A stretch of 64,000 bases of DNA from Truepera sp. (GTDB taxonomy: Bacteria > Deinococcota > Deinococci > Deinococcales > Trueperaceae), in contig JAVSMU010000001.1 in assembly GCA_032027045.1 (NCBI GenBank), positions 404,390-468,389 on the forward strand. Direction: 5' to 3'. Of the stretch, positions 12,747 to 28,388 are shown piece after piece; position 1 is the stretch's first letter, and every line of letters starts with the position of its first letter. The notes under the pieces are model-generated. The model had not been told where the DNA came from, made no database searches, and worked only from the letters and a program-made list of their open reading frames with translations. The position numbers were made by a program, and so were the translations under genes.

Positions 12747-12958
12747 GCGGCGATTATCCTGGGAAATCTCTTACAAAGGTCTTACTACAGCTAATTCCAG
12801 CCCTCCCTGACGCGAGTAGGGCGCGGCTGGGCGTTGCGACGGTTGGGGGAGAAGGCGTTGCCGAGTCGTGACGACCCGGGGCGTCCGGACCAACTAGTGC
12901 GCGCCCGAATCGGTCTCGTCGCATGCCCGAGCCAACCCACCGTCAAAGCGCAGCGAAG

Positions 12959-12988
12959 TTGACACCCCATGGCCGCCGTCTGTACACT
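12959..12988 (+). promoter_or_regulatory. Promoter of the tRNA-Ala gene
   Basis: A perfect TTGACA (12959-12964) and TACACT (12983-12988) are separated by 18 bases, 45 bases before the tRNA. This strong sigma-70-type promoter fits a stable RNA gene. Confidence 0.65.
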
Positions 12989-13033
12989 TGCGTTCGCCCT
13001 CCCGGCCTGTGGCTGGGAGCGAGAACATCCCGT

Positions 13034-13114
<81 letters not shown>

Positions 13115-13138
13115 AATTGCGTCCTAGACGCAACCACG

Positions 13139-13165
13139 AACCCCGGCCAAGCGCCGGGGTTCTGT
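13139..13165 (+). terminator. Terminator-like hairpin after tRNA-Ala (left end)
   Basis: A 9-base-pair stem, AACCCCGGC (13139-13147) with GCCGGGGTT (13153-13161), has a 5-base loop and is followed by CTGTCG. A similar but not identical hairpin follows the right attachment site at 28164-28192, so the element seems to bring its own terminator for the rebuilt tRNA gene. Confidence 0.65.
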
Positions 13166-13178
13166 CGTTACAGGCCTC

Positions 13179-13200
13179 GTACAGCTTATGTACAGCTTAT
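13179..13200 (+). repeat. Left arm-type site: two tandem copies of GTACAGCTTAT
   Basis: Two head-to-tail 11-base copies (13179-13189 and 13190-13200) lie 64 bases inside the left attachment repeat, between it and the integrase gene. The same tandem pair, in the same orientation, lies at 27955-27976 near the right end. Integrases of the lambda type bind such arm sites with their N-terminal domain. The binding role is inferred from position and symmetry. Confidence 0.7.
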
Positions 13201-13263
13201 GAACCCACGTGCTCCTCGCGCGCTTCCGCCACGAAACGCGCCGTACGGGTGCCGAGCCGTTGG

Positions 13264-14397
13264 TTACGTCTGGTCAACCGGGGCAAGGAGTTTCGCGAGC
13301 GGCACTGCGGCTGCTAGGCGTTGCTCCTCGAAGAGGTGTGTGTACTGACGCAGCGTGAAGGCGGGGTTGGTGTGTCCGACACGGTCGGCGATGGTGCTGG
13401 CGTCGAGGCCGTGCCGGACCAGGAGCGAGACGTGGAGGTGGCGAGCGTCGTGGAGGCGAGCGCGTGGGACACCGGCCTGGTCCTGCAGCCGGTGCCAGAC
13501 CCGCAGCACGTTGCGCTGGTCGAGGAAGGTGCCGATCTCGGTCGTGAACATGTGACCCGGGTTCGCCCAGCCTTCGCCTGCCAGTTCTAACTCGGCGTCC
13601 TGGCGCTGCCGGTGTTCCGCGAGGACCTCCAGCGTGTCAGCTGCGAGCGCCACCAGGCGCTGGCCCTTGGTGGTCTTGGTGCTGGCGAGGGTGAGGCGAC
13701 CATCCTGCTTGGTGAGGTTGCGCCGGACGTGGAGGGTGCTGCCCTTCAGGTCGCTCCAGGTGAGGGCAAGTAGCTCGCCTATGCGTAGGCCAGAGGTGAT
13801 GGCCAGGTAGAAGAGGGCGTGGAGGCGGTGCCGTTCGGAGTGCGCTAGGATGCGGCCGACCTGCTCGGTGGTCCATAGCGTCATCTCGCGCTTCTCGGCG
13901 CGGACGGTGTCGACCGCCGCGGCTGGGTTGCGCGGCAGGAGCTGCCACTTGACGGCCTGGTCGAGCGCCGTGCGCAGGGTGCTTCGGCAGTAGTTGCTCG
14001 TGTGGGGGCTTACCTCGTCGGCGATCTCGCCGAGCGCCGCCTGGATGCGTAGCGGCGTGAGCTTGCCGAGCCTCACGCGGCCGAGCTTGGGGGCGATGTA
14101 CTTCTCGACCGTGTAGCGGTAAGACTCCACGGTGCGCGGCTTCACCTGGCGCGCCTTCTCGGTCAGCCAGCGCTCCAGGTAAGCGCCTAGCGTGGGGTCC
14201 TCGATGGGGATGCCAGTGCTGCTGGCTTGCTGGCGCAGATCCTCGAGTTTCTTGCGCACCTCCTCCTTGGTCTTGCCGTAGACGGTCTTGCGCAGCTGCT
14301 TGCCGTTCTCGTCGTAGCCGATGGTGGTGGCGGCCTGCCAAAGGCCGTTCTTGCGGCGGGTGATGCTGCCATCGCCCTTCGCGCGGCGTCGTGCCAT
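13264..14397 (-). CDS. int: Tyrosine-type site-specific integrase
   Basis: A 377-residue integrase. An N-terminal arm-binding region (SITRRKNGLWQAATTIGYDENGKQ) is followed by a core-binding SAM-like domain (about 68-165) and the catalytic domain. The catalytic set is complete: Arg205 (SGLRIGELLAL), Lys in STKTTKGQR (241 or 244), His316 and Arg319 (LHDARH), His342 (VGHTN) and the nucleophile Tyr352 (QYTHLF). It is oriented toward the tRNA attachment site 150 bases away, the usual arrangement for elements that integrate into tRNA genes. A terminator-like hairpin precedes it, so it is probably expressed from its own promoter. Confidence 0.95.
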   Translation of the reverse strand: MARRRAKGDGSITRRKNGLWQAATTIGYDENGKQLRKTVYGKTKEEVRKKLEDLRQQASSTGIPIEDPTLGAYLERWLTEKARQVKPRTVESYRYTVEKYIAPKLGRVRLGKLTPLRIQAALGEIADEVSPHTSNYCRSTLRTALDQAVKWQLLPRNPAAAVDTVRAEKREMTLWTTEQVGRILAHSERHRLHALFYLAITSGLRIGELLALTWSDLKGSTLHVRRNLTKQDGRLTLASTKTTKGQRLVALAADTLEVLAEHRQRQDAELELAGEGWANPGHMFTTEIGTFLDQRNVLRVWHRLQDQAGVPRARLHDARHLHVSLLVRHGLDASTIADRVGHTNPAFTLRQYTHLFEEQRLAAAVPLAKLLAPVDQT

Positions 14398-14430
14398 GCG
14401 GGCGCTCCTTAGAAAGTGGGGGAATGAGAA

Positions 14431-14453
14431 GAGCCCAGCCGGGGGCTGGGCTC
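14431..14453 (-). terminator. Terminator-like hairpin between int and the gene at 14486
   Basis: GAGCCCAGCC (14431-14440) pairs perfectly over 10 bases with GGCTGGGCTC (14444-14453) around a 3-base loop. Read on the minus strand it is followed by TTCTCATT. It probably ends the transcript that comes through the 14486-14962 gene and separates int from it. Confidence 0.6.
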
Positions 14454-14485
14454 GGTGAAGTCGAAGGTCGGGTTGTAGGGAGCTA

Positions 14486-14962
14486 CTAGATGACGGGCAC
14501 GTGCTTCACTGCTTCCGCCAGAATCTCTAGCGCCTCGTCTCGACGCCCGTCCTGAAGAAGACCTAGACCAAGGGCCACGAGGATCTTGGTGTTGAGCATG
14601 CTCGGGGTCATAAGGGGGTTATCCGGTCGTTGGCCGGGCAGCAGGGTGGTCAGCGCGTAGAACGCTATGAGCCGTATGGCGTCATCTGGCACGCCGGTCA
14701 GGTCTACGCCGAAGGTCTCCTCGACTAGCGGGCTGCATGTGAGTGCATCCAGGTCCTGCCAGAACGTGGTGAGGAGGTCGGCAAGGCCTGGGGTTGTGGG
14801 TGGGACGCGTAGCTCCTCCTGAATGTGGAAGGCGGCACGGGGGAGGCGGCTCTTCCAGTTGGCGATCCGGACATTGGCGTCGGTGAGGTGCTTGAAGACG
14901 CTGCCGCTGTAGTCGATGAACTCGCGCGAGCGGTCGATGGAGGGGCGGATGGCGTGGGTCAT
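14486..14962 (-). CDS. Hypothetical helical protein of the element
   Basis: A 158-residue protein of unknown function. The start at 14962 has an AAGGAGA ribosome site 8 bases upstream; a longer frame to 15016 has no such site. The sequence is mostly helical, with a C-terminal segment (LGLGLLQDGRRDEALEILAEAV) that resembles a single TPR-type hairpin. No catalytic motif, signal peptide or membrane segment is seen. It lies between the DUF3987 gene and the integrase on the same strand. Confidence 0.6.
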   Translation of the reverse strand: MTHAIRPSIDRSREFIDYSGSVFKHLTDANVRIANWKSRLPRAAFHIQEELRVPPTTPGLADLLTTFWQDLDALTCSPLVEETFGVDLTGVPDDAIRLIAFYALTTLLPGQRPDNPLMTPSMLNTKILVALGLGLLQDGRRDEALEILAEAVKHVPVI

Positions 14963-15067
14963 GCTGTCTGTCTCCTTAGAGGTGAACGGCCACTGACAGA
15001 GCTGACAAAACCCCATCCGGCTGCGGAGGGTTTCGTCGGTTCTGTCGGTGGCAGCTGGGGTGTGTGG

Positions 15068-16831
15068 CTAGAGGTCGAGGTCGGCTGCGAAGTCGAGCAG
15101 TGGGTTGGTGCGGATGATCTCGGTGGGGCGGCCGGTGCCGGAGGGACTGCCTTCGAGGCGCAGCCAGCCGCGTCCGGCCAGGTGCTCGACGGCCTGCTGG
15201 ACGCTGGCTTTGGTCTTGAGTCCGCGCCAGCCGCGCCGGTAGATGTCCCGCACGGAGCAGCCGTCCTCCAGCTCGCCGGCGATGAGACGGTGAGCGAGCT
15301 GGCGCACGTTCTCCGTCGTGCGCGTCAACTCGGGGGCATAGAGCTTGCGCGCGTGCGCCTCCAGGTACTCAGTCCAGCGGATCGCCAAGCGCAGTGCTGC
15401 GGCGCTCACCGGCCGCAGCTCGACGTCGTCGACGCTGTCGATCAGGTGGAACAGAAGCGCTAGCTTGCCGACGAGCGCTTGGTACTTACCTAGGTGAGCC
15501 TGGAAGGCTGGCGTGTCGCTCAGCTCGCGTGAGCGGAGGCGTCGCATGTGCGCAGTGAACCAGGCGTCGAACTCCTCCTGCGCCTCAGGGGTGAAGCGTA
15601 GGCCGGGCAACCGGCCCAGTTGACGTTCTAGTTCTGGATGGGCGGCCGGGTCGAGGTCGGCGAGCGCCTGGAAGAGGCGTTGCACGCCCTCCCGTACGGT
15701 GGGGTCGACGGGGCGGTCGACGTGCACGTAGTCGGTCAGCGGCTCCGGGTAGACGGCGAGCTGGAAGCGCTGCAGCAGGCCGTCGGACTGCCTGCCGCCG
15801 GAGACGGCGCCCAACACGTAGGCCTCCATCTTCCCGGGCTGCACGCCGCCAACGATGCTTAGCGTGAGGGCGGGCACATGGATGGTGCCGCGGCCGATGC
15901 GGTCGACGGTGTAGTTCGCCTTGGAGTTGAATGCCTCAAGGAAAAACTCGCGGTCGCCTTCACGGCCAGGCTTGTCGCATGAAACGAGCAAGCCCACCAG
16001 TTCGTCGCGAATGACCAGCAGGCCCCGTTCGTTGGTGCGGAGCAGCTCGGTTGCCATCTCTACGGTGGGGTCGTTAGTGGTGTAGCGCTTCACCGGGCGC
16101 TGCAACGCCTCGATCTCCTGGCTGGCGGCGGCGATCTGCTCGGTGAGCGTGATCGCGGGCGACGGGCCTGCCGCCTCCTTGTAGAGCTTCGACAGCTTGG
16201 CCTCTTGGATGGAGACCTTGGCGTCGCGCACGTGGCGGTCGGCTTCGTAGGCGGCTATGGCGTCTGCGGCGAGCCGTTCGATGTGGCGCGTGCCCTCTTG
16301 CAGGGCGGGGGACTTCATGGAGCTAGGCGGCGCGATGACGGCACCCCAGAGGTTGGGGACGACCTGCCAGGTGTCGTAGCGCTTGGGGTAGAGGCCGATG
16401 TTGCGCCCGGCGACGGCTCCTAGCGACACGACGGCTGGGATGGCGATCATCTCGACAGGCACGCTCATGCGCTCGGCCTCGTCGACCAACCAGGCGCGTA
16501 GCGGCTCTGGCAGGAGGTCAGGCGGCATGCCGGGCGCGACCTCAGCCTCGGTCAGGGGCAACGGCTGCGGCCAAGTGGCCTCGGGCTCCTCGGCGTCATC
16601 GGGGCAGCAGGCTCCATCGTGGAGCTGGTCGGCGTCTGCGGTCAGGGCAGCGTCAAGCTCAGCTTCGAGGCTGGCGAGACGCTGTTCGCCGTCCGCAGGC
16701 CAGTCGAAGAGGCTGAGGTGGCGGTACTCGGCGGTGAGCTGGTCGACGCGTCCGGGGGCGGCGGCCGGGCGCTGCGCGAGGGCGGTCAGCTTGCCGTCGA
16801 TGCGCTGGAGGGTGGCGGATGGGGCTGTCAT
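15068..16831 (-). CDS. DUF3987-type helicase/primase-like protein
   Basis: A 587-residue protein of the DUF3987 (YfjI-like) family common in phages and integrative elements. The P-loop region reads IAPPSSMKSPAL, a variant of GxxxxGKS typical of this family. A Walker B-like LLVIRDELVGLL follows, then GRQSDGLLQRFQLAVYPE. The C-terminal ~80 residues look like a winged helix (TKASVQQAVEHLAGRGWLRLEG). Such proteins are thought to act in element replication, alone or with a primase domain, but the biochemistry is poorly known. Its ATG overlaps the stop of the excisionase-like gene (ATGA), so the two are coupled. Confidence 0.75.
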   Translation of the reverse strand: MTAPSATLQRIDGKLTALAQRPAAAPGRVDQLTAEYRHLSLFDWPADGEQRLASLEAELDAALTADADQLHDGACCPDDAEEPEATWPQPLPLTEAEVAPGMPPDLLPEPLRAWLVDEAERMSVPVEMIAIPAVVSLGAVAGRNIGLYPKRYDTWQVVPNLWGAVIAPPSSMKSPALQEGTRHIERLAADAIAAYEADRHVRDAKVSIQEAKLSKLYKEAAGPSPAITLTEQIAAASQEIEALQRPVKRYTTNDPTVEMATELLRTNERGLLVIRDELVGLLVSCDKPGREGDREFFLEAFNSKANYTVDRIGRGTIHVPALTLSIVGGVQPGKMEAYVLGAVSGGRQSDGLLQRFQLAVYPEPLTDYVHVDRPVDPTVREGVQRLFQALADLDPAAHPELERQLGRLPGLRFTPEAQEEFDAWFTAHMRRLRSRELSDTPAFQAHLGKYQALVGKLALLFHLIDSVDDVELRPVSAAALRLAIRWTEYLEAHARKLYAPELTRTTENVRQLAHRLIAGELEDGCSVRDIYRRGWRGLKTKASVQQAVEHLAGRGWLRLEGSPSGTGRPTEIIRTNPLLDFAADLDL

Positions 16832-17025
16832 GCGCTGGTGGCGGCTTCGCGCTCGATGAACGCCTCGACCTCGCGGTGCGGGATGAGGATCTTGCGGCCG
16901 ACCTTGATGTGCCGGATGCGTCCCGCTCGGAGAAGTTCGTAGACGTTGCCGCGGCCGATGGCGCCGCCAAGCGCGTAGCGGAACTCGTCGGGGCTGAGAA
17001 GGGGCTTCGTGTTGCGGTCTTGCAC
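16828..17025 (-). CDS. xis: Excisionase-like MerR/HTH_17 DNA-binding protein
   Basis: A 65-residue DNA-binding protein whose core (LLSPDEFRYALGGAIGRGNVYELLRAGRIRHIKVGRKILIPHREVEAFI) matches the winged-helix excisionase family. I chose the GTG at 17025 because an AGGAG site lies 5 bases upstream; an ATG at 17106 would add 27 low-complexity residues. Proteins of this type bend DNA at attachment sites to favour excision, or act as repressors. It is the first gene of a coupled pair with the DUF3987 gene, and its upstream region holds tandem repeats that could be operators. Confidence 0.75.
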   Translation of the reverse strand: MQDRNTKPLLSPDEFRYALGGAIGRGNVYELLRAGRIRHIKVGRKILIPHREVEAFIEREAATSA

Positions 17026-17464
17026 AAGAACTCCTAGCGCCTCCTCGTGGGCGGAGGTCGCGGTTGATGTAGGGGTGGCTTCTGGCCCACGCCCCTTCGG
17101 CTTCAAGTGGTTCGGGGATCGCGGCGTGACGCCCTACCAGTAGAGGTGAGGGCGCTTCGTGAGGGGCGGCGGGGCTCATTTGTCCGTGGTGCTGGGCTCA
17201 GAGTCCCGCCTGGCGAGGTGGTTAGTTGCTGACGAGCTATGTCTGATATGGCTTCGTGGCGGCCTGATGAAGTCCTCTCGTGCGACCCGAGTTGGGTGGG
17301 CTGCGGCTGCGTTGGGTTCTGTCGGGTGGGGAGCGAAGGGTGCGAGGCTCGTGGCCGCGCGTTCTTCAAGGTTAGTCGGGGCTGCTCAGAGCTTGTTTTC
17401 GCGTTCCCTGTTGAAAGTTCGCGTTCCGTGTTGACAGCTCGGCCTGCGCGAGCAAGAGTGGCTT
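17026..17464. promoter_or_regulatory. Divergent control region between xis-like gene and zinc-ribbon/HTH gene
   Basis: This 439-base spacer separates minus-strand xis/DUF3987 from the plus-strand gene at 17465. No convincing gene is present. It contains two 20-base tandem repeats at 17398-17437 and T-rich stretches near 17394-17400, making it the likely switch region of the element. Confidence 0.45.
17398..17437 (+). repeat. Two tandem 20-base repeats, probable operators
   Basis: TTCGCGTTCCCTGTTGAAAG (17398-17417) is followed directly by a second copy differing at two positions (17418-17437, ending GTGTTGACAG). Each copy contains a TTGAMA hexamer that could act as a -35 element. The 20-base period places proteins on the same face of the helix two turns apart. 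The gene starting at 17465 codes for a DNA-binding protein, so autoregulation is plausible. Confidence 0.55.
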
Positions 17465-18076
17465 GTGGCGGGCGACTTCGAGTACATCCAGCCTTCAGGT
17501 CAGGCCTGCCTCAACCCGGCTTGCTCTTACTTCGAGGTGACCGGTCAAGGAAACATCCAACGCTTTGGAGTCACGGAGCGCCGCGTGCAGCGCTTCCGCT
17601 GCAAAAAGTGTCGGAAGACGTTTACCGAGTTGGCCGGAACGCCGATGCACCGACTGCGCCATGACGAAGCCACGGTGGTCGAGGCTGCAACCAAGGTCTT
17701 GTTGGGTGCGCAGTCGATCAGTGATACGGCTCGCGAGTACGGTGTGCCCTACTCGACAGTGAAGCGTTGGGTGGACGTGGTGCGTCCATACAGCGACCTG
17801 ACCGACCAGGTCGAGTTGGTCCTGAATCGGCGCATGCGGGCCGTAGCCTGGAGGTTGGCTGTCCTGGAGCATGCTCTTTCGCTGGGCCTGTTGACTCGGG
17901 CTCGGTATGACCTGGCGACGGATCACATCACCGAAGGTTCTGAGGACGGCGCTGCTGTCTTTGCGGACGTTCTACGTGAACTGGTGACTATGCACGGCGA
18001 TCTAGCGAAGCTGGGCGCGGCCGTGCGCGAGGAGTACGAAGCAACGCTGCGTGACCTAACCCGTCCAAGCCACTGA
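17465..18076 (+). CDS. Zinc-ribbon / helix-turn-helix protein (IS1-like transposase N-terminal type)
   Basis: A 203-residue protein. It has a four-cysteine zinc ribbon (Cys15, Cys20, Cys46, Cys49; CLNPAC and CKKCRKTF) followed by an HTH (about 78-103: LGAQSISDTAREYGVPYSTVKRWV). This is the DNA-recognition unit found at the N-terminus of IS1/IS1595-type transposases. No DDE catalytic domain follows; the last ~95 residues are helical. It may be a domesticated DNA-binding regulator, or a remnant that kept an intact frame. It starts at a GTG just after tandem operator-like repeats and is the only early plus-strand gene in this half of the element. Confidence 0.7.
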   Translation: MAGDFEYIQPSGQACLNPACSYFEVTGQGNIQRFGVTERRVQRFRCKKCRKTFTELAGTPMHRLRHDEATVVEAATKVLLGAQSISDTAREYGVPYSTVKRWVDVVRPYSDLTDQVELVLNRRMRAVAWRLAVLEHALSLGLLTRARYDLATDHITEGSEDGAAVFADVLRELVTMHGDLAKLGAAVREEYEATLRDLTRPSH

Positions 18077-18093
18077 GTAAGGCGGCAGAGAAG

Positions 18094-18756
18094 TCAGGCG
18101 GCTCGTGGGTCTTGCAGTTCACGGGCGGCTGACCAGACGATGCGAGCTTCGCGCTCCTCAAGGGCGGCGAGGTCGGGTACTTCTCTACCGAGCACGCTCG
18201 TGGCGTAAGCGAGTTGGTCTCGTCGCGCTACGCCGAGCTTGGCAAGCTCCTTCTGCATGAGGGCGGCGCGTTTCGGGCCGATGGCGTCGCTTACCAGCTC
18301 CCGGCTCTGGGGCGCACGCTGCGGTGCTGCGAGCGTGGGTGATCCCTTGAGCTGCTTGGTGTTGGCGTCGTAGTCGACCCACTGGGTGGGTAGCGAGTAG
18401 AGGTAGCGGCCGAGCCCGAACTTGGTGCAGGCTCGCTTGAAGGCTTGCGCTTCGGCGCTGGTGCCGGCGATGTCGGGGTTGCTGTCGCCGCTTTCGCCGG
18501 TGCTGCTTCTGGTGACGTCGAGGATGGTGAGGTGGCAGATGAGTCGGTGTTCGCCCCAGGGGGTGAACTGGACGTGCCACTCTCCGGGCACGAGTAGGTT
18601 GAGGCGGTCTTCGTAGGCGCGTGGGTCGGCGTAGGCGAGGGCGATGGCTTTGGTCTTGTCGCGGTTGGTGGCTCCGGCGCGGTACTTGATCTCGCTGGCG
18701 TCGAACGGTTCGGCGAGGCGTTGGAGCAGGTTGTGCCAGTCGATGTTGTCGTTCAT
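18094..18756 (-). CDS. Rad52/Rad22-family (DdrA-like) single-strand annealing protein
   Basis: A 220-residue protein whose N-terminal ~130 residues match the Rad52/DdrA annealing fold: EIKYRAGATNRDKTKAIALA, YEDRLNLLVPGEWHVQF, and the hallmark AEAQAFKRACTKFGLGRYLYSLPTQWVDYD. Such proteins bind single-stranded DNA and anneal complementary strands. In phages they act as recombinases, and in Deinococcus DdrA protects DNA ends. Here it sits in the recombination module of a mobile element, so an annealing role in element replication is more likely than host radiation repair. The C-terminal ~60 residues (SDAIGPKRAALMQKELAKLGV) look like a separate helical domain. Confidence 0.82.
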   Translation of the reverse strand: MNDNIDWHNLLQRLAEPFDASEIKYRAGATNRDKTKAIALAYADPRAYEDRLNLLVPGEWHVQFTPWGEHRLICHLTILDVTRSSTGESGDSNPDIAGTSAEAQAFKRACTKFGLGRYLYSLPTQWVDYDANTKQLKGSPTLAAPQRAPQSRELVSDAIGPKRAALMQKELAKLGVARRDQLAYATSVLGREVPDLAALEEREARIVWSAARELQDPRAA

Positions 18757-18776
18757 GGCGCTCCTTTCAGGGGCGG

Positions 18777-19232
18777 TTAGTAGATGCGCGGCCTGCGGTG
18801 GCCCGTGGGCGGTGTGGTGGGTTCGAGCAGCTGGGCGTTGTTTAGCGCCGCCTCTAGTTCGACGGTGATGGGGTGCTTGCTGCTGAGTTCGTTCTCGACC
18901 TCGCTAAGTAGGTCTTCGAGCGCCTGATAGTTGGCGGGAGTGACGGGGAGCTTGTGGCCTTGTGTGAGGCGCTGTAGGTGGAGGCGTTGGCTGGGGGTGA
19001 GGGCTCGTAGGTGTTGCCGGACGGCGTTGGTGGGGCTGCTGCCGTCGTCGTTGCGGCCGGTCCCGTGACAGTCGTCGCAGGGTTCTTGGCGTTCGGTGGG
19101 GAGGTAGTTGCCGTGGTAGGTGCTGTAGTAGCCGGGGCCGCCGACGTAGACGAGGTAGCCGTCGCCTTGGCAGGTGTAGCACCAAGGAATGTCGGGCTTC
19201 TCGCTCAGTAGGTCAGTGAGAGTGAGGGTCAT
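18777..19232 (-). CDS. Small protein with two DnaJ-type CxxCxGxG zinc motifs
   Basis: A 151-residue protein. CYTCQGDG (Cys18, Cys21) and CDDCHGTG (Cys52, Cys55) form the two halves of a DnaJ-like zinc finger, separated by a Gly/Tyr-rich loop. The rest is helical (TPSQRLHLQRLTQG). There is no J domain. It lies 20 bases before the Rad52-type gene and is coupled to the upstream gene at 19229 by an ATGA overlap. Its function is unknown; a zinc-stabilised single-strand DNA or protein-binding accessory role fits the neighbourhood. Confidence 0.65.
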   Translation of the reverse strand: MTLTLTDLLSEKPDIPWCYTCQGDGYLVYVGGPGYYSTYHGNYLPTERQEPCDDCHGTGRNDDGSSPTNAVRQHLRALTPSQRLHLQRLTQGHKLPVTPANYQALEDLLSEVENELSSKHPITVELEAALNNAQLLEPTTPPTGHRRPRIY

Positions 19233-19567
19233 GCGGCTAGCTCTCCTTTCGTGCTGGTGGCGCGTACGCGGCCTTCGAGGTCGGTGATGGGGGCGTGGAA
19301 CCGCTTGATGCTGATGAGGCGTGCGGCGTCTTGGTGGAGTGAAGCCGTGAGGGTGAAGCCGTAGTGGTGCAGGAGGCGGTCGACGGCGATGAGCGGTTCG
19401 GGGTTGGTGATGGTGAGGCAGGCGAGCTTGAGGCTGTCGGCCTTGGTCTCGTGGAGGGTCAGGGCGGTCCTGGCGGCGAGGTCGGCTAGTAGCGCGTCGA
19501 CCTGGTGGCCTTCAGGGCAGGTGGTGAGGGCGTGGATGAGGGCGCGGAAGAGTTGCGGGAGGGTCAT
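19229..19567 (-). CDS. Hypothetical protein of the recombination module
   Basis: A 112-residue soluble protein that I do not recognise. It has helical N-terminal sequence (LPQLFRALIHALTTCPEGHQVDALLADLAARTALTL) and a later strand-rich part. Its stop overlaps the start of the DnaJ-motif gene (ATGA), so the two are translated together with the Rad52-type gene. An AGGAGCCAG ribosome site precedes the ATG. No domain or motif points to a function. Confidence 0.6.
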   Translation of the reverse strand: MTLPQLFRALIHALTTCPEGHQVDALLADLAARTALTLHETKADSLKLACLTITNPEPLIAVDRLLHHYGFTLTASLHQDAARLISIKRFHAPITDLEGRVRATSTKGELAA

Positions 19568-19588
19568 GTCTGGCTCCTAAAGCGAAGG

Positions 19589-19619
19589 AGCGCCAGGACC
19601 TTAGTGGATCGCTGGCGCT
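19589..19619 (-). other. Intergenic hairpin upstream of the 19567 start
   Basis: AGCGCCAG (19589-19596) pairs with CTGGCGCT (19612-19619), with further partial pairing inside. On the minus strand it lies between the ardC-like stop and the start of the next gene, followed by CCTTCGCTTTAGG. A short frame preceded by AAAGGAGC sits between the ardC-like stop and the hairpin. It could be an attenuator or mRNA-stabilising stem. Confidence 0.4.
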
Positions 19620-19686
19620 AGTGGGAGTTCGGGTTGTAGGCGGCTCCAGTTGGTGAGTTGGTCAGGCTGGTGCTCCTTTCTGCTGG

Positions 19687-20592
19687 TCAACTGCTGACGA
19701 AGGTGAGTGGCGGGCGTTTGGACGCCTGCCCGGAGGACGTGGACGGGTTGGTGGGTTCCGCTTTTGGCTCGGTGCTGGCGGCGTCGGGGTCGGCCGTCAG
19801 TTGTTCGAGGATCTGGTCGGCGGCTTTGCTGGCTCGGTCTCCGGCTTGGATGAGGTCTTCGAGGCTGTCGGTCCAGCTGGCGAGGTAGGCGAAGGAGTAG
19901 GTGCTGGTGTCGATGCCGATTGCGTTGGCTACGAGGAAGGCGGTTGTTTCGGCCTCCAGCTCGGCGCCGTGGCGGTTCTCGCTGCCGCTGTGCAGGAGCA
20001 TGTGCGCCGCCTCGTGGCATAGGGTCTTGAAGGCTTGGGTGTGGCTGAGGCCCGGCCGGATGGCGATGTGCTTGTCGGCTGGCCGGTAGACGCCGAGGGC
20101 GTGTTCGTGCTGGAAGTCCCAGCTGACGCGGACGCCTTTGCTGGCGCAGAACATGGCGAGGCGGAAGTGGAGTCCGGCGAGCTTTACCTGAGCTTCTGGC
20201 GTGTCCGTGAGCAGGCGGGGGCTGTCGCGTTGTGGGATGGGTTCGCCGTCGGTCTGGGCGAGGTCGAAGACGTAGACGGTCTTGAAGCCGACGAGGTTGA
20301 GCTGGTCGTGGTCGTCAGGATCGCGGACGAGTAGCGGCGCGAGGATTGCGATGCCCTTCTCGCCTTTGCGGACGAAGCGGTTGCTGGCCTGCCAGGTGCG
20401 GTACCCGGCGACGAGCTGCGCGTCGGGGCGCTGGGCGAGGATCAGGAGGGTGTTCATGTAGCTGTAGTTGTGGAAGCGCTGGCGGAACTGCAGGGCTCTC
20501 TTCCAGCCGTCGCTGGTCATGAGGTCGGTGACTCCCTTGTGGAGAATGTCGAGAGCTGCCTGTTTGTTGTCCTGCTTGGCGGTGGTGGTCAT
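19687..20592 (-). CDS. ArdC-like antirestriction protein with zincin domain
   Basis: A 301-residue protein. The N-terminal domain is the ArdC-N ssDNA-binding type (TSDGWKRALQFRQRFHNYSYMNTLLIL, then GYRTWQASNRFVRKGEKGIAIL). The C-terminal part is a zincin with HEAAH at 193-197 and a downstream acidic helix (ELEAETTAFLVA) supplying Glu ligands. The tail is Pro/Ser-rich. ArdC proteins on plasmids protect incoming single-stranded DNA from restriction and can cleave protein targets. It faces a restriction-modification pair on the same element, which would matter when the element enters a host with other restriction systems. Confidence 0.82.
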   Translation of the reverse strand: MTTTAKQDNKQAALDILHKGVTDLMTSDGWKRALQFRQRFHNYSYMNTLLILAQRPDAQLVAGYRTWQASNRFVRKGEKGIAILAPLLVRDPDDHDQLNLVGFKTVYVFDLAQTDGEPIPQRDSPRLLTDTPEAQVKLAGLHFRLAMFCASKGVRVSWDFQHEHALGVYRPADKHIAIRPGLSHTQAFKTLCHEAAHMLLHSGSENRHGAELEAETTAFLVANAIGIDTSTYSFAYLASWTDSLEDLIQAGDRASKAADQILEQLTADPDAASTEPKAEPTNPSTSSGQASKRPPLTFVSS

Positions 20593-20610
20593 GGCGTGCT
20601 CCTAAACGAG

Positions 20611-20642
20611 AAAAGCCCCGACCTTCGTTAGAAGATCGGGGC
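20611..20642 (-). terminator. Terminator or attenuator upstream of ardC-like gene
   Basis: GCCCCGA (20615-20621) pairs with TCGGGGC (20636-20642); after one mismatch CTTC pairs with GAAG around a GTTA loop. Read on the minus strand the stem is followed by TTTTCTCG, so it has the form of a rho-independent terminator. It lies in the ardC-like 5' leader, 18 bases before the start codon, which suggests attenuation. Confidence 0.55.
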
Positions 20643-20743
20643 GGTCTTGTGGTTGCTGGCTGGTGGCTGGAGAGGGGCGACGGTCTACAAGTCTGCTGCT
20701 CCTTTCAGTCTGTGGTGGGCGTTGGGGTTCATGCCTGTGGCAT

Positions 20744-20771
20744 GAGAAAGCCCGCCGTTAGGCGGGTTCTC
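20744..20771 (-). terminator. Second hairpin in the ardC-like upstream region
   Basis: CCCGCC (20751-20756) pairs with GGCGGG (20761-20766) around GTTA, extended by weaker pairs to GAG/CTC. On the minus strand it is followed by CTTTCTC. It has the same GTTA/TAAC tetraloop as the hairpin at 20611-20642. Confidence 0.45.
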
Positions 20772-21003
20772 GGGTGGGATGCAACTGAGTGATGGCGGCG
20801 CTAGTGCCGGCGCTGCTAGGTTTCGAGTTTCCTATTTCGATCGCGACACGAAGCTGACAGGGGGAGGGGGGTCTAACAACCCCGCGGATACTCAAGTGTT
20901 GGGGGGCTACCCGGACCAGGAGGAGGGGGTACTTCTCAGAAGGCAGTACAGCCAGGCGGCCTTTGGCGGCGACAGAAGTCGGCCTTTTCCGCCCGGTCTG
21001 GTT

Positions 21004-21032
21004 TTGCTGCACCTTTCACGCCCAGCTATATA
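21004..21032 (+). promoter_or_regulatory. Promoter of the TIR/SEFIR gene
   Basis: TTGCTG (21004-21009), a 17-base spacer and TATATA (21027-21032) form a sigma-70-type promoter 42 bases before the ATG at 21075. Confidence 0.55.
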
Positions 21033-21074
21033 CACAGACAAGCATCTGACCTGGGGAGTGGGTACGATAGGCCT

Positions 21075-21998
21075 ATGCCACCTAAGGCGTTCATTTCGTA
21101 TGCCTGGGAGTCGGAAGAGTTGCGTTCGTGGGTTCGTGACTTGGCTACCCGGTTCCGAGGAGATGGTGTTGACGTCACTCTGGACCAGTGGCATCTGGCG
21201 CCGGGTGACCAGTTGCCTCAGTTCATGGAAGAGGCAGTCAGAACCAACGACTTTGTCCTCATCGTGTGCACCCCCACATACAAGGCTAAGTCCGACTCTC
21301 GTCAGGGTGGCGTCGGATACGAGGGCGACATCATGACGGCAGAGGTAATGGCCGACAGGCAGCACAGGAAGTTCATTCCCTTACTGCGTATAGGCGAGTG
21401 GGCCGAGAGCGCACCGTCGTGGCTTCGAGGGAAGTACTTCGTTGATATGCGAAGTGGCGCCGCTGAAACCGGTTATTCGGACTTGCTAGCAACGATCCTC
21501 GGTACCCGCCAGCAAGCCCCGCCTGTGGTCGTTCAGAAGCGGCCAGATGGAAGTCAGCGCACGGCTCCCTCGCAGCCGGCTAACGCAGATGAGCCCATGC
21601 GCATCGTCGGCGTTATCGTGGATGAGGTAACCCAACCGACGCTCGATGGAAGTCCCGGAAGTGGACTTTACAGAGTTCCGTTCCGACTTTCGAGGGCGCC
21701 CTCAGTCGAGTGGTCACGGCTCTTCGTGGAGGCTTGGAACCGCCCCCCGCGCTGGACTTCTATGCATCGTCCTGGTATCGCGCGAGTGGTAGGAGACAAG
21801 GTGCTCCTTGATGGGACCACTATGGACGAGGTAAGGCGATACCATCGGGATACGCTTGTCCTTGCCGTTGAGCAAGCAAACGCTGGCCTGCGACGCCTTG
21901 AGGAGCGCCGCAAACTGGCGCAAGAGCAGGAGCAGCGGAAGCGAGAGGAACACGAGGCGCAAGTCCAGAAGTTGGCTAACGAGATTACCTTCGACTAG
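21075..21998 (+). CDS. TIR/SEFIR-domain protein with unknown C-terminal domain
   Basis: A 307-residue protein. Residues 1-145 form a SEFIR-type TIR domain: KAFISYAWESEELRSWVRDLATRF, DVTLDQWHLAPGDQLPQFMEEAV, DFVLIVCTPTYKAK and GGVGYEGDIMTAEVM. Glu83 in GYEGDI is a candidate catalytic residue if the domain is an NADase. A Pro/Ser/Ala linker (about 155-180) leads to a second domain (about 183-270: YRVPFRLSRAPSVEWSRLFVEAWNRPPRW) that I do not recognise. The end is a coiled coil (ERRKLAQEQEQRKREEHEAQVQKLAN). Bacterial TIR proteins often act in anti-phage defence by depleting NAD or making a nucleotide signal. It has its own promoter, and no obvious effector partner lies beside it apart from the restriction genes. 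Confidence 0.85.
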   Translation: MPPKAFISYAWESEELRSWVRDLATRFRGDGVDVTLDQWHLAPGDQLPQFMEEAVRTNDFVLIVCTPTYKAKSDSRQGGVGYEGDIMTAEVMADRQHRKFIPLLRIGEWAESAPSWLRGKYFVDMRSGAAETGYSDLLATILGTRQQAPPVVVQKRPDGSQRTAPSQPANADEPMRIVGVIVDEVTQPTLDGSPGSGLYRVPFRLSRAPSVEWSRLFVEAWNRPPRWTSMHRPGIARVVGDKVLLDGTTMDEVRRYHRDTLVLAVEQANAGLRRLEERRKLAQEQEQRKREEHEAQVQKLANEITFD

Positions 21999-22283
21999 GA
22001 AACAGCGCGTCCTATTCGGCATGTAACGGTAGGTAGCGATAGGCGGCAAGTTCCGCAGTTGTTGCTCACAGGCAGACTCAGTGCGTGCGCTCGTTCCACG
22101 TGCCCGACGAAGCCTCTGTCCGTGCGAGATGTATCTTGGAGAAGGGTGTTTCTGTCCTTCTACTCCTGGGAGCCCGGCAACGCAACTCTCAGGCGGCCAC
22201 TTAGGTAGTTGCAGCCACCTGCGCTTCCTTGTCTACACGTCAAAGCCGACAAGATGGGTATGTGCAAAGGTCAAAGCACACAC

Positions 22284-24920
22284 TTACCTACTCGGGTCCA
22301 CTGCTATGAGAGCGGGCAACTTGGTTCGCCAGTCGTCCATCAGCACCAGTTCGCACTGGACGGTTGTTCCGTCGTCGGTGAGTAGTTCCATCTGTCCGGC
22401 TGGGACGGTCCTGTCCCACTGGAAAGCGCCAGTGAGCAGATCGAGCACGGCCGCCTTGTAGGTGGTGTCGTCGTTACCCCCGAGGTGGTCGCCTTTGGTT
22501 TCTAGTACGGTGATGCGGTTAGCGGTTCCATCGGGTCGTGCGGCGAAGATGAAGTCGGGGTAGATCTTGCCGCGCCGCCAGCCCTGCACGTAGTACTGGT
22601 TACGGGCGACGTTGCGGTGCCACCAGTTGAGGGTTTCTTCGGCGTCAAGGTAGACGGCTACGTCGCGCTCGTCAGGGTTGAAGTCGGCGGCGTACTGAGG
22701 AGCGAAGAGGCTCTTCTGCAGGGGGCCACCGTCGAGCCCTACGACTTGCGGGGCGTTCTCGGGCTCGGTTGTGACGGAGGTAGTCGGCATGCGCCAGGTG
22801 GCGCCGTCGGCGCGGAGGCGGAACTGCACGTTGCCACAGGAGACCTCGTGGCGGAATAGTTGTTCGGCTTTCTCGTCGCGCTTCTCGGCGAGGTACTTGC
22901 GGAGTTCACTGAGGATGAGACTGGAGAGCTGGCCGAGGCGTTCGTCGGTGAAACCGCACGCCCTGAGACCGTCCAAGAGTTTGCCGACGATGTCGCGGGC
23001 TATCCAGGCGTTCTGCACGATGTCGGAGGTGAGCCTGACCAGGTAGGCGGGGTCGAGGGCGTGCACGTTCTTGTTAGCTTCGACCCTCTCGGCGACGATG
23101 CGTTCTTGGCCTTCGGTGAGGGTGATGCGTTGCAGCTGGCTCTCGGCCGCCTGGAAGTTCGTTGGTATGCGAGCGACAAGAGGTCTTACGTCGAGGTCGG
23201 TCCAGTCGATCTGATAGAGGATGTCCGTGTCGTAGTCGAGCAGGCGGGCTTTGCCGCGCTCGATCTTGAGGACTCGGGGTAGGTAGATCTCGGTGGTTCG
23301 GAACTCAGCGCGGCGTGGGATGTTGCGGGGACCCTTTGTCGTGCTGCCCGTTTCGTCCTCCTGGCGGACTTCTCTTACCAAGTCGCCGAGGCCGCCTTCT
23401 TCCAGGCCGGTCTTGACAGCTTGGACGACGTCTGCGGTGGAGGCGTGGTGGGCGTAGACGTAGCACTCGTCAAGGGCTTTGACGTTGGTCTTCTCGGCGT
23501 GAGGCTGCCTGAGTATGCGGCCGACGAGCTGGGTCATGCTGTTGAGGCTGGAGCTGGCTGCTAGCGAGCAGAGGACGTAGGCGAAGGGGTTGTCCCAACC
23601 TTCTTGCAGCGCTTGCTTGGTGATGATGACGCGCACGCGGTTGGTGGGCGCGAGTAGGTCTTGGTTTTCAGGGTTGTTGAGGTCGTTGGTGTCGGCGGTC
23701 TTGATGGCGATCTCGGCGTCCGGGTCGAGCCCGGCTTGCGCGAGCCACTCTTTGACGTCGAGGGCGTGGATGTGGTTGCCGTCGCGTTGGTCTTGGCCGG
23801 TGCGTTCGACTTGGACGAGCATGATGGGGCGGATGTAGTTCCCGCCGTTCGCTCGGTGCTCTTGAGCTGCTTCTTGTAGACGGTTGAGCCGTTCGAGGGC
23901 AGTGTTTAGGGTGTTGCGCCAGTCGGCATCTTGGAGGGTGGCGAGGTTGAGGGGCATCTTGATCATGCCCTCGCGCAGCAGCTCGACTCCTAGGACGTCC
24001 ACGAGGACGTTGGCGTAGCGCGCCTCGCGGGGGTTTCTCCCGCCTCGCGCTGCGACGTCCACGGGAGTTGCGGTTAGTTCGAGGACGAAGGAGGGGTTGA
24101 AGCCGTAGAGCGTCCTGAACGCGAGGTCGCTGATGGCCCTGTGCCCTTCGTCCATAACGACGACGGGGCGGATGAGCCGGAGCGCGTTGCCGAGGGAGTC
24201 CTTGACCATCGGCCACATGCTTCCGGAGCCTGCGGCTGAGCTGTAGGCGTCGAGGTTCGGGGTGGCGTCGAGCGCGGCCTGGTGCGCGGCTTGATCGCCT
24301 TCTGGGGGGAAGAAGCCGTGGACGTCGCCGCGGTCCTGGAACATCTTGAGGGAGTCCTTGGTCTCGCGGTTAGCGGCTTGCAGCATGAGGACCATGACGC
24401 ACAGGTGCGTCTCGACGTCGCGAGCGTTGAGAGGATCGTTCTTCTCCATGATCTTCACGCGGCCCGCCGCTGAGCGGTCCAGCATCTGCCGGTACGGGTG
24501 CTCGCGGTCCTTGAGCTGCTTTAGGGTCTGCGTGTAGATAGCTTCGTTCGGGACGATCCAGAGCACGAAGCCGGAGTTCTGGCCGAGGTAACGGCCCATG
24601 ATCCGAGATAGCGAGGCGGTGGCAAGATAGGTTTTACCGCCGCCGGTGGGCACCTTGAGCACCACGTTAGGTACGCTGCGCCCGACGCCGTCCTTGCGAG
24701 GCGAGAAGGGGATGTTGGCGCGGGTGGCCGGCAGTTTGCCCGCCTGTTTCAGGGCTTCCCAGGCTCTCTCGGCGTGGTCTGGTACTTCCAGGCCGAGGTC
24801 TGGGTCTTGCTTGGCTAGATCGTGGACGCGGTCGGCGCGTTTCTTCTCGTCGATGAGGTGCGTCAGGTAGTCGTCAACGACGGTTAGGACTCGCGCTTGA
24901 TAGTCCAGGTCGCGTAGCAC
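22284..24920 (-). CDS. Type III restriction enzyme, Res subunit
   Basis: An 878-residue superfamily 2 helicase/translocase with a C-terminal nuclease. Walker A is VPTGGGKT (residues 90-97), the DEAD-box-like motif is VVMDEGHR, motif III is LTATPVD, and motif VI is MTQLVGRILRQP. The nuclease core is YPDFIFAARP...VLETKGDH (PD-x-ExK type) near residues 790-815. The start GTG follows the Mod stop by 2 bases. Length and order fit EcoP15I/EcoP1-type enzymes, which need two inversely oriented sites. All motifs look intact, so the system is probably active. Confidence 0.92.
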   Translation of the reverse strand: MLRDLDYQARVLTVVDDYLTHLIDEKKRADRVHDLAKQDPDLGLEVPDHAERAWEALKQAGKLPATRANIPFSPRKDGVGRSVPNVVLKVPTGGGKTYLATASLSRIMGRYLGQNSGFVLWIVPNEAIYTQTLKQLKDREHPYRQMLDRSAAGRVKIMEKNDPLNARDVETHLCVMVLMLQAANRETKDSLKMFQDRGDVHGFFPPEGDQAAHQAALDATPNLDAYSSAAGSGSMWPMVKDSLGNALRLIRPVVVMDEGHRAISDLAFRTLYGFNPSFVLELTATPVDVAARGGRNPREARYANVLVDVLGVELLREGMIKMPLNLATLQDADWRNTLNTALERLNRLQEAAQEHRANGGNYIRPIMLVQVERTGQDQRDGNHIHALDVKEWLAQAGLDPDAEIAIKTADTNDLNNPENQDLLAPTNRVRVIITKQALQEGWDNPFAYVLCSLAASSSLNSMTQLVGRILRQPHAEKTNVKALDECYVYAHHASTADVVQAVKTGLEEGGLGDLVREVRQEDETGSTTKGPRNIPRRAEFRTTEIYLPRVLKIERGKARLLDYDTDILYQIDWTDLDVRPLVARIPTNFQAAESQLQRITLTEGQERIVAERVEANKNVHALDPAYLVRLTSDIVQNAWIARDIVGKLLDGLRACGFTDERLGQLSSLILSELRKYLAEKRDEKAEQLFRHEVSCGNVQFRLRADGATWRMPTTSVTTEPENAPQVVGLDGGPLQKSLFAPQYAADFNPDERDVAVYLDAEETLNWWHRNVARNQYYVQGWRRGKIYPDFIFAARPDGTANRITVLETKGDHLGGNDDTTYKAAVLDLLTGAFQWDRTVPAGQMELLTDDGTTVQCELVLMDDWRTKLPALIAVDPSR

Positions 24921-24922
24921 TG

Positions 24923-26797
24923 CTATTCCCTTTCGACGCGGTAGAGCGCGAACGGGAGCGGGGCGAACTCAACGGGGAGGTCTGCGTCGTTGAGCATCTT
25001 CTGGGACACGAAGCGCGCGGGTGCGAAGACGACATGGCGACCCTCGCGTGTCTCGGCTATGCTCCTTGCCTTGGCGAGGGTGAGGGCGGCGTCGCTCGAC
25101 TTCAGGTACTCCAGGTCCGGCTGATAGATGAGCCATACGTGGACCCCGGCGGCTTCGCCCAGGTAGCCGTGACCCGGCTGACCCAGCGCATCTGCCTCTA
25201 TGGTCTCTGAGGACAGTGGCGTGTTCGTGGCAGTGTGGAAGAGCACGCTCGCCAGCGCCTCAAAGGAGGGCAAGCTCTCACCAGTTAGCAGCCTGTCCAT
25301 GTCGATAGGATCGCCAAGCGTGCAGTAGGTAAACGTACCGCCAAGACCTTCTGCTTTCTCCTCGACCTTTTTCTCCCCAGTAACAACCAACTCTCCGTTA
25401 GTCACCGACTTCCGGATCGTGTCATAGCTGGGGCCATAGGCGTTCTCAAGCCCTTCTACTTTCTCTAACAGCCTGCTGGCTTGTTGGAACTTTGTCCATG
25501 TGATCTTCTCGCGAAGTAGTTCGTCGCGCTGAGTCCCGGTAAAAGAGTAGCCGTTGATGACCCGGCGGACTCGCTCGGCAGTCAGCTGATCGGCGTAGTC
25601 CTCCATTTCGACCAGGATGAACTTTCGGCTACCCTGGTCCTTCGCGTTTTGAGCGAGGACTGCATGGGCCGTAGTTCCTGATCCGGCAAATGAGTCAAGA
25701 ACTAGCGCTTCTGGGTTCGGAAGGAGCTGCAGAAGCTTCTCCACCAAGGCAACAGGTTTTGGGAAGTCAAAGACGTTCCCGCCCATGATTTCTGTAACAG
25801 TTTTTCGGGCCAAGTCCATGTTGAGATCAGCGTCCAACCAAATGGTCTTGGGTTTCGTCCTTGTTTCCTTTCCTTCTTCATCTGCAAGATAGTCCTTGCG
25901 AAAGACCCGCCAGCCACCTTGTGATGACTGACGCCCGACAACTAAGTGGTTTTCGCTTCGTATCTTTGGAATACTCCACGTCCAGCAGGTGGGATTTCCA
26001 GCTGAGTCGAGCGGCAAGGCTTCCTCGCTGTGCTCTTCGTCGCGGTTTGGTGACACCTCGCCGGTGTGGGGATTTATGTACAGAGGGAAGTAGAGGTTTG
26101 GCCGTGTCTTGGGGTTGAAGGCGGAGTTGCGGTTTCGCAGCTCTAGTAGACGGTAGCGACCCTTGTCGTCCTCTTCGTTGTATTCAGCGAGCATTTTCTC
26201 GGTCTTGGGAATGCCAGTTAGCTCGGTTGCGCTCACGTCCTTGGCGAATATGAGTACGTACTCGTGGGTCTTGGCGAAGAACTGGTCTAAGTGCCGACCC
26301 TTCGGGTTGAGGCGAGCAATGATGCGACCGAGATTGTTTTCAGAACCGAAGATATCGTCGAGGATAAGTTCGAGTCGATGCCCCTCGTGCTCATCGATCG
26401 TGACGAACAGGATGCCGGTATCGGCAATGAGTTCGTGGAGGAGTTTCAAGCGCGGATACATCATTGCTGCCCACTTGTCGTGGCGCAGTCCGTCCTCGAT
26501 CGTGATGGGGTTGCTGTTGAGCCACTCACGCAGCATGGGGCTGTTGACGTTGTCGTTGTAGCTCCAGCCCTCTTTGCCTGTGTTGTATGGCGGGTCGATG
26601 AACACGCAGTCCACCTTTCCGGCATACATGGGAAGGAGTGCTTTTAGAGCGTGCAAGTTGTCGCCGTTGATGATGAGGTTGTCATCGAGGCTGGCGTTGC
26701 CTATGCCCTTATCGGCGTGAACCACGAGCGGCCGGAACGGCACGCTTAGGTGATGGTTGTAGACGAACTCTTTACCTTTGAAGACTAGCTCCGGCAC
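24923..26797 (-). CDS. Type III restriction-modification methyltransferase, Mod subunit
   Basis: A 624-residue adenine-N6 methyltransferase of the beta class. The catalytic motif DPPY is at 68-71 (CVFIDPPYNTGKEGWSYND) and comes before the AdoMet-binding motif LVLDSFAGSGTTAHAVL (about 365-380), as expected for this class. The variable middle region should hold the target-recognition domain. The GTG start follows an AAGGGG site. It supplies both self-protection and sequence recognition for the Res protein. The middle of this gene and its upstream region are visibly more AT-rich than the chromosomal flanks, in line with transfer. Confidence 0.92.
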   Translation of the reverse strand: MPELVFKGKEFVYNHHLSVPFRPLVVHADKGIGNASLDDNLIINGDNLHALKALLPMYAGKVDCVFIDPPYNTGKEGWSYNDNVNSPMLREWLNSNPITIEDGLRHDKWAAMMYPRLKLLHELIADTGILFVTIDEHEGHRLELILDDIFGSENNLGRIIARLNPKGRHLDQFFAKTHEYVLIFAKDVSATELTGIPKTEKMLAEYNEEDDKGRYRLLELRNRNSAFNPKTRPNLYFPLYINPHTGEVSPNRDEEHSEEALPLDSAGNPTCWTWSIPKIRSENHLVVGRQSSQGGWRVFRKDYLADEEGKETRTKPKTIWLDADLNMDLARKTVTEIMGGNVFDFPKPVALVEKLLQLLPNPEALVLDSFAGSGTTAHAVLAQNAKDQGSRKFILVEMEDYADQLTAERVRRVINGYSFTGTQRDELLREKITWTKFQQASRLLEKVEGLENAYGPSYDTIRKSVTNGELVVTGEKKVEEKAEGLGGTFTYCTLGDPIDMDRLLTGESLPSFEALASVLFHTATNTPLSSETIEADALGQPGHGYLGEAAGVHVWLIYQPDLEYLKSSDAALTLAKARSIAETREGRHVVFAPARFVSQKMLNDADLPVEFAPLPFALYRVERE

Positions 26798-27094
26798 AAC
26801 CGCACCCCTTCTGCCCGCCGGGCCATGACACTGCTTTGCGCGTCATGTAGGGTAACCCGCCTCGCCGGTCCTAAACCGATGGACGCGATCGGCTGGATGT
26901 ACTCCTGGCTAGTCTCGCTGGCGTTGCAAGCGGGGGAAAACTTCTTAGTGTCATCGCCAGCCGTGCCACACGTGGGCCCGTAACGGAACCTTAGGAACGT
27001 AGAGTTCGTAGCTCACTCACCATGCCCATCTGCAATCTTCTGCCAAGTTCTTAGGCGGCAGCCGGTTGCGGCATTGCTGAGTGTTCCGTTGTCG

Positions 27095-27107
27095 GCGTCC
27101 TAGACGC
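27095..27107. repeat. Internal copy of the GCGTCCTAGACGC palindrome
   Basis: This 13-base palindrome (5-base arms, CTA centre) also lies just outside each 50-base attachment repeat, at 13119-13131 and 28145-28157. The internal copy is about 1 kb from the right end. It may be a binding site for an element or host factor in recombination. Confidence 0.4.
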
Positions 27108-27184
27108 ATCGTCGTGACAAGACGTGACGAACCTCTTTCCATTCACACACGAGCGGTCGTTGTCTCAAACCCCATGCCGCCCGC

Positions 27185-27218
27185 CTAGGGCGAGTACTAC
27201 TCGCTTTAGGCGCCCTAG
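27185..27218. repeat. Nested inverted repeat near the right end
   Basis: CTAGGGCG (27185-27192) pairs with CGCCCTAG (27211-27218), and inside it GCGAGT (27190-27195) pairs with ACTCGC (27199-27204). The two stems overlap, so they are alternative structures. There is no T-run on either side, which argues against a simple terminator. Confidence 0.4.
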
Positions 27219-27515
27219 ATCTCTGGGGTCAGTGCATGCCGGGCGGGAGGATTCCTGAAGCATTCTTCTTTGCGGATCCAGCCTACTTTCGTCAGTTTTG
27301 TCAGCAGCAAGAGACCTTACAGAGGCCGGCGCTTGTTGGATCGCCTTCGACAGAAGCACTGGAGCCTAAGCCTTTGGTACGGCTCAAGGACTTTCCAGGC
27401 TACGACCCGGAGGGGCATCCGATATGGTGGCAGTGCCTGCTCACAACCTAGTTAGGCGGACCATGGGACAGCCGACGCAGTCATCGCGTAGAGATGCAAA
27501 GGTAGGGTCACATAG

Positions 27516-27932
27516 ATGTTGTCAATGAAGCAGTATCACAAGGCGCTCCTACTTGGCGGTGTCCTGTCGCTTGCAGTTGTAGTAACTGGCTGCTCCGCCG
27601 CCTTGCCTCCCGATGCTCAAGGACCCCTTTGGGAAGAAGTGGTCAAGGGTGAGCGGGCGAACGCGGCGCGTGGAGGTTGGACCGGGATAGGGCTGATCGT
27701 TGTCGGTGTGTTGATGATGGTGGGGTCTATTTTCCCGGATCTGGACCTCATGGCGAGAGTCGGCATCCCGTTCATAAGCTTTTTGGGCATCACAGTGAGA
27801 ACTTCGATACCAGTTGGTCTTGCTTTCGTCGCCCTTGGGGTGTGGCTCATCAACAAGACGCAGTACACGGTCAGGGTCTCTACTGGGGAGCCAGAAAAAG
27901 CCGAGAGTAGGGGCCGAGGGAAGAAGAAGTAG
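27516..27932 (+). CDS. Small lipoprotein with two membrane segments
   Basis: A 138-residue protein. A signal sequence with the lipobox-like VVTGC (Cys at about residue 26) is followed by two further hydrophobic segments (TGIGLIVVGVLMMVGSIF and IPVGLAFVALGVWLI) and a very basic tail (ESRGRGKKK). AAAGGTAGGG lies 8 bases before the ATG; a second ATG three codons on is an alternative. It is the last gene before the right arm site. I do not recognise a family; surface or superinfection functions are common for such cargo, but nothing here shows it. Confidence 0.6.
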   Translation: MLSMKQYHKALLLGGVLSLAVVVTGCSAALPPDAQGPLWEEVVKGERANAARGGWTGIGLIVVGVLMMVGSIFPDLDLMARVGIPFISFLGITVRTSIPVGLAFVALGVWLINKTQYTVRVSTGEPEKAESRGRGKKK

Positions 27933-27954
27933 GTGGGGTCCTTCAAAGTCGACC

Positions 27955-27976
27955 GTACAGCTTATGTACAGCTTAT
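27955..27976 (+). repeat. Right arm-type site: two tandem copies of GTACAGCTTAT
   Basis: Two head-to-tail copies (27955-27965 and 27966-27976) are identical to the pair at 13179-13200 and in the same orientation. They lie 114 bases inside the right attachment repeat. Confidence 0.7.
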
Positions 27977-28090
27977 CGGACGATATCGGATGCGCCGCAG
28001 CGATTCATTGCAACATCACATGGCGCCGAAACCGCGTCCAGGAGCACGTTCTGGACTCAGGCGGTTTCGGCCGTCACGTGCTGCTTGCAG

Positions 28091-28140
<50 letters not shown>

Positions 28141-28163
28141 GTTAGCGTCCTAGACGCAAGAGG

Positions 28164-28192
28164 AGCCCCGGCAAGAGGCCGGGGCTATTTTG
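28164..28192 (+). terminator. Original terminator of the tRNA-Ala gene (right junction)
   Basis: AGCCCCGGC (28164-28172) pairs with GCCGGGGCT (28178-28186) and is followed by ATTTTG. It has better terminator form than the element-borne hairpin at 13139, which fits the idea that it belonged to the tRNA before integration. Confidence 0.7.
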
Positions 28193-28388
28193 TGGGGCTT
28201 AGCGATCGGGTTTACTGCCTCCGAAACCCTCAAGCACGGTCGGAAACAGCTTAGGCACCCGGGCTGGGTAAACGGCAGCATGAGACGGCGGCTAATCTGG
28301 GCGACGCCGAAGGTTGCGGTGCTCGGCTTCGGGGAACGGGGTCACGGAACAGCGAAGGCGCGGAGCACCCGGAAGTCGCGACCTCCTG

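Follow-up and report, generated by a model that had tools for sequence, protein, structure and literature searches.

Tandem 20-base repeats in a mobile element of Truepera sp.: a candidate one-sided promoter/operator of the adjoining gene

A mobile element of ~15 kb (13065-28140), integrated in a tRNA-Ala gene within the 64,000-nucleotide stretch of the Truepera sp. genome analysed here (the window), carries two abutting 20-base repeats just ahead of a gene for a predicted DNA-binding protein. Are these repeats a genetic switch, a replication origin, the control site of a single gene, or simply a duplication? Copy 1 (17398-17417; TTCGCGTTCCCTGTTGAAAG) and copy 2 (17418-17437; TTCGCGTTCCGTGTTGACAG), both identified on the plus strand from the sequence and with a repeat finder, lie head-to-tail and are identical at 18 of 20 positions. 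Each contains a TTGAMA hexamer (TTGAAA at 17411-17416 and TTGACA at 17431-17436), and 27 bases separate the pair from the GTG of the plus-strand ORF 17465-18076 (hereafter the 17465 gene). An earlier note had described this arrangement of two copies, two differences, one hexamer each and a 27-base gap, and all of it is present. The 439 bases upstream of GTG 17465 are probably non-coding: codon-position GC is flat at 0.60-0.68, and that of the 17465 gene is 0.67/0.46/0.71. Because this gap has no codon-position pattern, and because the 20-base period is not divisible by 3, the pair is not a coding repeat. It partly covers the 60-base step of lowest GC in 16800-18100 (17360-17419, 50% GC), and the RNA of 17380-17470 was predicted to fold no better than shuffled sequence (z 0.54).

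Table 1. Positions in the window of the features of the mobile element discussed in the text.
Feature	Position	Strand	Remarks
att repeat	13065-13114	+	50 bases; overlaps the 3' part of tRNA-Ala
Tyrosine integrase	13264-14397	-	
DUF3987 protein	15068-16834	-	helicase-like
HTH_17 excisionase-family protein	16828-17025	-	65 aa; probable GTG start with AGGAG
Candidate promoter TTGACA-17-AAGAGT	17431-17459	+	9/12 to sigma-70 consensus; weak -10
203-aa protein (17465 gene)	17465-18076	+	IS1/IS1595-type zinc-binding domain and helix-turn-helix; C-terminal part predicted helical
att repeat, second copy	28091-28140	+	50 bases; identical to the first

Besides the genes in Table 1, the element encodes an Erf-like annealing protein and an ArdC-like protein, and Rfam models returned only the tRNA from 12900-28300. 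Defence cargo occupies 21075-26797: a type III restriction-modification pair lies there with a TIR/SEFIR protein, for which bSEFIR was the best PADLOC match. The protein of 18777-19232 has CxxCxGxG-like motifs and no family match, and occurs in nine other genomes of 111. Within each end of the element (13179-13200 and 27955-27976) there are two tandem copies of an 11-base sequence unlike the 20-mer, GTACAGCTTAT. This tandem was absent from the rest of the window and from 148 other loci; these pairs are probable integrase arm-type sites, and likelier ones than the 20-mer.

Our leading, though tentative, reading is that the repeats form part of a promoter/operator region of the 17465 gene that is one-sided rather than divergent. 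The TTGACA of copy 2 would serve as the -35 box, followed by a 17-base spacer and by AAGAGT as a weak -10. AAGAGT ends five bases before GTG 17465, which places the candidate +1 at or next to the start codon, and we infer that transcription from the GTG would yield a leaderless mRNA. The two in-register copies, offset by 20 bases or about two helical turns, could then be bound by a DNA-binding protein; the simplest candidate is the product of the 17465 gene itself, with its zinc-binding domain and helix-turn-helix, which would cover the -35 box and tune its own expression. In the window, TTGACA-17-AAGAGT is among only four of 63,970 plus-strand positions that score at least 9/12, and on the two strands of 17026-17480 it is the only pair that reaches at least 8/12.

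These scores, however, carry no discriminating power in the host genome. At a threshold of at least 9/12 to the sigma-70 consensus, the host sample held 41 sites vs 40 for a reversed-hexamer control; four vs six had a candidate start within 150 bases, and one vs one lay 4-8 bases before a candidate start. Exact TTGACA formed no peak before candidate starts (six occurrences over 60 offsets in the host sample), and a stricter standard promoter scan returned no promoter in 16800-17700. What does stand out ahead of the host's genes (319 ORFs with 1,903 candidate starts) is TANNNT at 11-13 bases before candidate starts, where 3 of 12 offsets collected 44 of the 92 counts; the 39 sites listed resemble TAGNCT and have no clear -35. 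This excess fits leaderless genes, which are common in Deinococcus deserti (PMC9031893). TTGACA-17-AAGAGT lies at the leaderless distance, but its -10 matches only three of six positions and is without the first T of TANNNT. What favours a promoter here is its position, together with one perfect hexamer, TTGACA. The control role proposed in the earlier note is plausible on the side of the 17465 gene, where this pair lies, even though the stricter scan came out empty and the scores are uninformative.

The strong rival to a promoter/operator, and a close second as a realistic if somewhat less probable account, is neutral tandem duplication, in which a slip doubled 20 bases that by chance held a TTGAMA hexamer, and the copies, now changed at 2 of 20 positions, are diverging. 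Against shuffled sequence the pair is striking: in 60 rounds of dinucleotide shuffling, the window never gave a tandem pair of 20 bases with two or fewer mismatches, nor one with any period from 15 to 30 and >=90% identity. Real sequence makes it less so. Within 442,847 unmasked bases of the host genome (the window and twenty 20-kb stretches), the repeat search gave 16 rows of tandem pairs with periods from 15 to 30 and >=90% identity, or ~1 per 28 kb, and seven of these rows, making up six arrays and including the pair at 17398-17437, had a period not divisible by 3. Duplication would also account for there being two copies only, with no other site within the element: at three or fewer mismatches the 20-mer matched the window only at the two copies (0.02 matches expected), and the whole genome of 2,919,400 bases added one match, with three mismatches. 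Nor did HTH_17 loci elsewhere (20, spread over 17 other genomes of 111) show a comparable adjoining repeat when tandem pairs of period 15-45 at >=88% were sought within 1.5 kb on each side (21 loci including the element's own). This search returned the element's own pair, a 24-base pair in L066, poly-C runs in L079, and nothing in the other 18 loci. The 24-base pair lies inside an ORF of L109 read as a helicase. Among 14 related loci tandem rows occurred in L038, L040 and L109 only, the row in L109 being this helicase-ORF pair. Less expected of a neutral duplication, although seen post hoc, is that the repeats end 27 bases before a start codon and supply the -35 of the one promoter-like pair in this gap.

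A two-sided switch between the 17465 gene and the divergent operon of the excisionase-like (xis-like) HTH_17 gene and the DUF3987 gene, as the earlier note had envisaged, finds no support. The HTH_17 domain was called on a longer ORF (16828-17106), and its start was read from the sequence; AGGAG stands five bases before GTG 17025, where the gene probably starts. Given that start, the operon begins 372 bases to the left of the repeats, and it has a Shine-Dalgarno of its own. With the operon at that distance and no promoter-like site on the minus strand near the repeats (none of at least 8/12 in 17026-17480), the divergent arrangement is left unsupported, although consensus scores of this kind do not discriminate in the host genome. 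We also considered that the HTH_17 protein might use the repeats as operators, working at att as well as in a switch region in the manner of Apl of phage 186. An excisionase-family gene does lie nearby, and such proteins are described as using direct repeats at att and in the switch region, with the Apl/Cox sites of phages 186 and P2 spaced by one turn, present in five to seven copies and recurring at att (PMC7498355). Here, by contrast, the spacing is 20 bases, no family with the 10-11-base spacing of Apl/Cox arrays was found among the repeats and the 20-mer has no 10-base sub-repeat, while the att flanks hold no similar site (the best match, at 13223, differs at 6 of 18 positions and the next ones at 8). 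Together with the remoteness of the operon start, this makes HTH_17 operators improbable.

The other role suggested earlier, that of iterons, fares no better. The repeats would in that case mark a replication origin of the excised element, for which the 17465 protein or some other protein would act as initiator. Direct repeats of 20 bases next to the gene of a DNA-binding protein do resemble an iteron-initiator pair. DUF3987 proteins are predicted replicative helicases of mobile elements (PMC5862659). Homologues of the element's DUF3987 protein occur in 14 other genomes of 151, all distant (best 41% identity), and in one phage record and seven plasmid records; two contig scans returned none. 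The repeats themselves speak against an origin: there are only two copies, sites in the element with five or fewer mismatches number two vs 0-4 in 20 shuffles, no stretch is strongly AT-rich (the lowest GC being 50%) and the nearest DnaA-like box, with one mismatch, is at 20538, 3.1 kb away. We therefore regard iterons as highly improbable.

The first half of the product of the 17465 gene matches IS1/IS1595 zinc-binding models and, below the cut-off, transposase models, and the protein is a DNA-binding candidate on its predicted domains. Its C-terminal half is helical in a single-sequence structure model of low confidence (mean pLDDT 64), and a family-model search found no transposase catalytic domain. 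Solved structures included no convincing relative of either this protein or the HTH_17 protein. In 39 genomes of the family the 17465 protein had five weak matches in three other genomes, and from their translations all five read as whole or partial DDE transposases; at E 1e-6, a search of 111 genomes of the phylum matched one other genome, which is among these three. There was no match in viral contigs, phages or genome contigs, the contig scans having used one protein as the query and thus reaching close relatives only. The one plasmid record matched has an ORF that appears to end in the start of a transposase catalytic domain. No close relative was found in the family, phylum, viral, phage, plasmid or genome-contig searches.

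This transposase flavour and the plasmid ORF would suit a repeat that is the remnant of an end of the insertion sequence that brought in the 17465 gene. Yet none of the eight inverted pairs in 17026-18200 brackets the gene, a result that largely rules out an insertion-sequence end. The gene also has no second copy in the genome, and the C-terminal half, predicted helical, matches no transposase catalytic model, leaving such a remnant very doubtful. The protein might instead be the DNA-binding half of an IS1595-type transposase, domesticated as a regulator of the element and controlling itself through two 20-base operators over a leaderless promoter; we consider this full scenario unlikely, although less so than the remnant.

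Relatives of the element say little about the repeats. The closest, and the only close one found, is L112 (genome G020, same genus). Its DNA is 84% identical to 18774-20415, a match that runs to the end of the L112 contig, and the protein encoded at 18777-19232 has an 83% identical counterpart there. Its similarity to the window stops at 18774, and the whole repeat region and the 17465 gene are missing from it. Past that point, ORFs of the related element (6724-12685 of L112) read as an IS3-like transposase pair, and an HTH_17 gene adjoins an apparent different helicase. A more distant element in genome G024 (L109) has an integrase, an HTH_17 gene, a zinc protein and ArdC, and held no match to the 17465 protein; the 18777-19232 protein is present in both L109 and L112. 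In L111 (7832-9134; genome G036), a tRNA-Ala match adjoins a related integrase gene that contains a single internal TAG. At the DNA level, 17026-17480 had no blastn match at E 1e-3 among the loci fetched, own-genome loci (L001, L002, L003, L004, L010, L028, L063, L084, L118 and L128) left out, and a search with 16800-18100 matched nine other genomes of 151 in short pieces (26-61 bases) that all fell outside the repeats. The 18 fixed bases of the repeat had no exact match in viral contigs. On these comparisons the repeat region belongs to the variable part of the element, and its absence from L112 is therefore uninformative on function where the 17465 gene is present.

No finding lifts the pair above an everyday control site or a neutral duplication. 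Should the repeats prove to be operators, a mobile element from a bacterial family that has received little study would gain a small, testable regulatory site, and there might be a case in which the DNA-binding half of a transposase has been reused as a regulator. Otherwise, the value of the analysis lies in a limiting claim, that both a two-sided switch and an origin are without support.

Three known systems bear comparison with the pair at 17398-17437. Plasmid iterons are likewise direct repeats of ~20 bases beside a DNA-binding protein gene, but are usually more numerous and accompanied by DnaA boxes and an AT-rich stretch, which are not seen near this pair. The operators of Apl and Cox in phages 186 and P2 are also direct repeats in a control region close to an excisionase-family gene, and differ from its two copies, 20-base spacing and absence from att. 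The third system is the autoregulatory operator of bacterial repressors in general, overlapping a -35 box; the pair described here, a candidate operator, differs from these in having direct rather than inverted repeats, but resembles them in its abutting copies with a -35-like hexamer before the gene of a putative DNA-binding protein.
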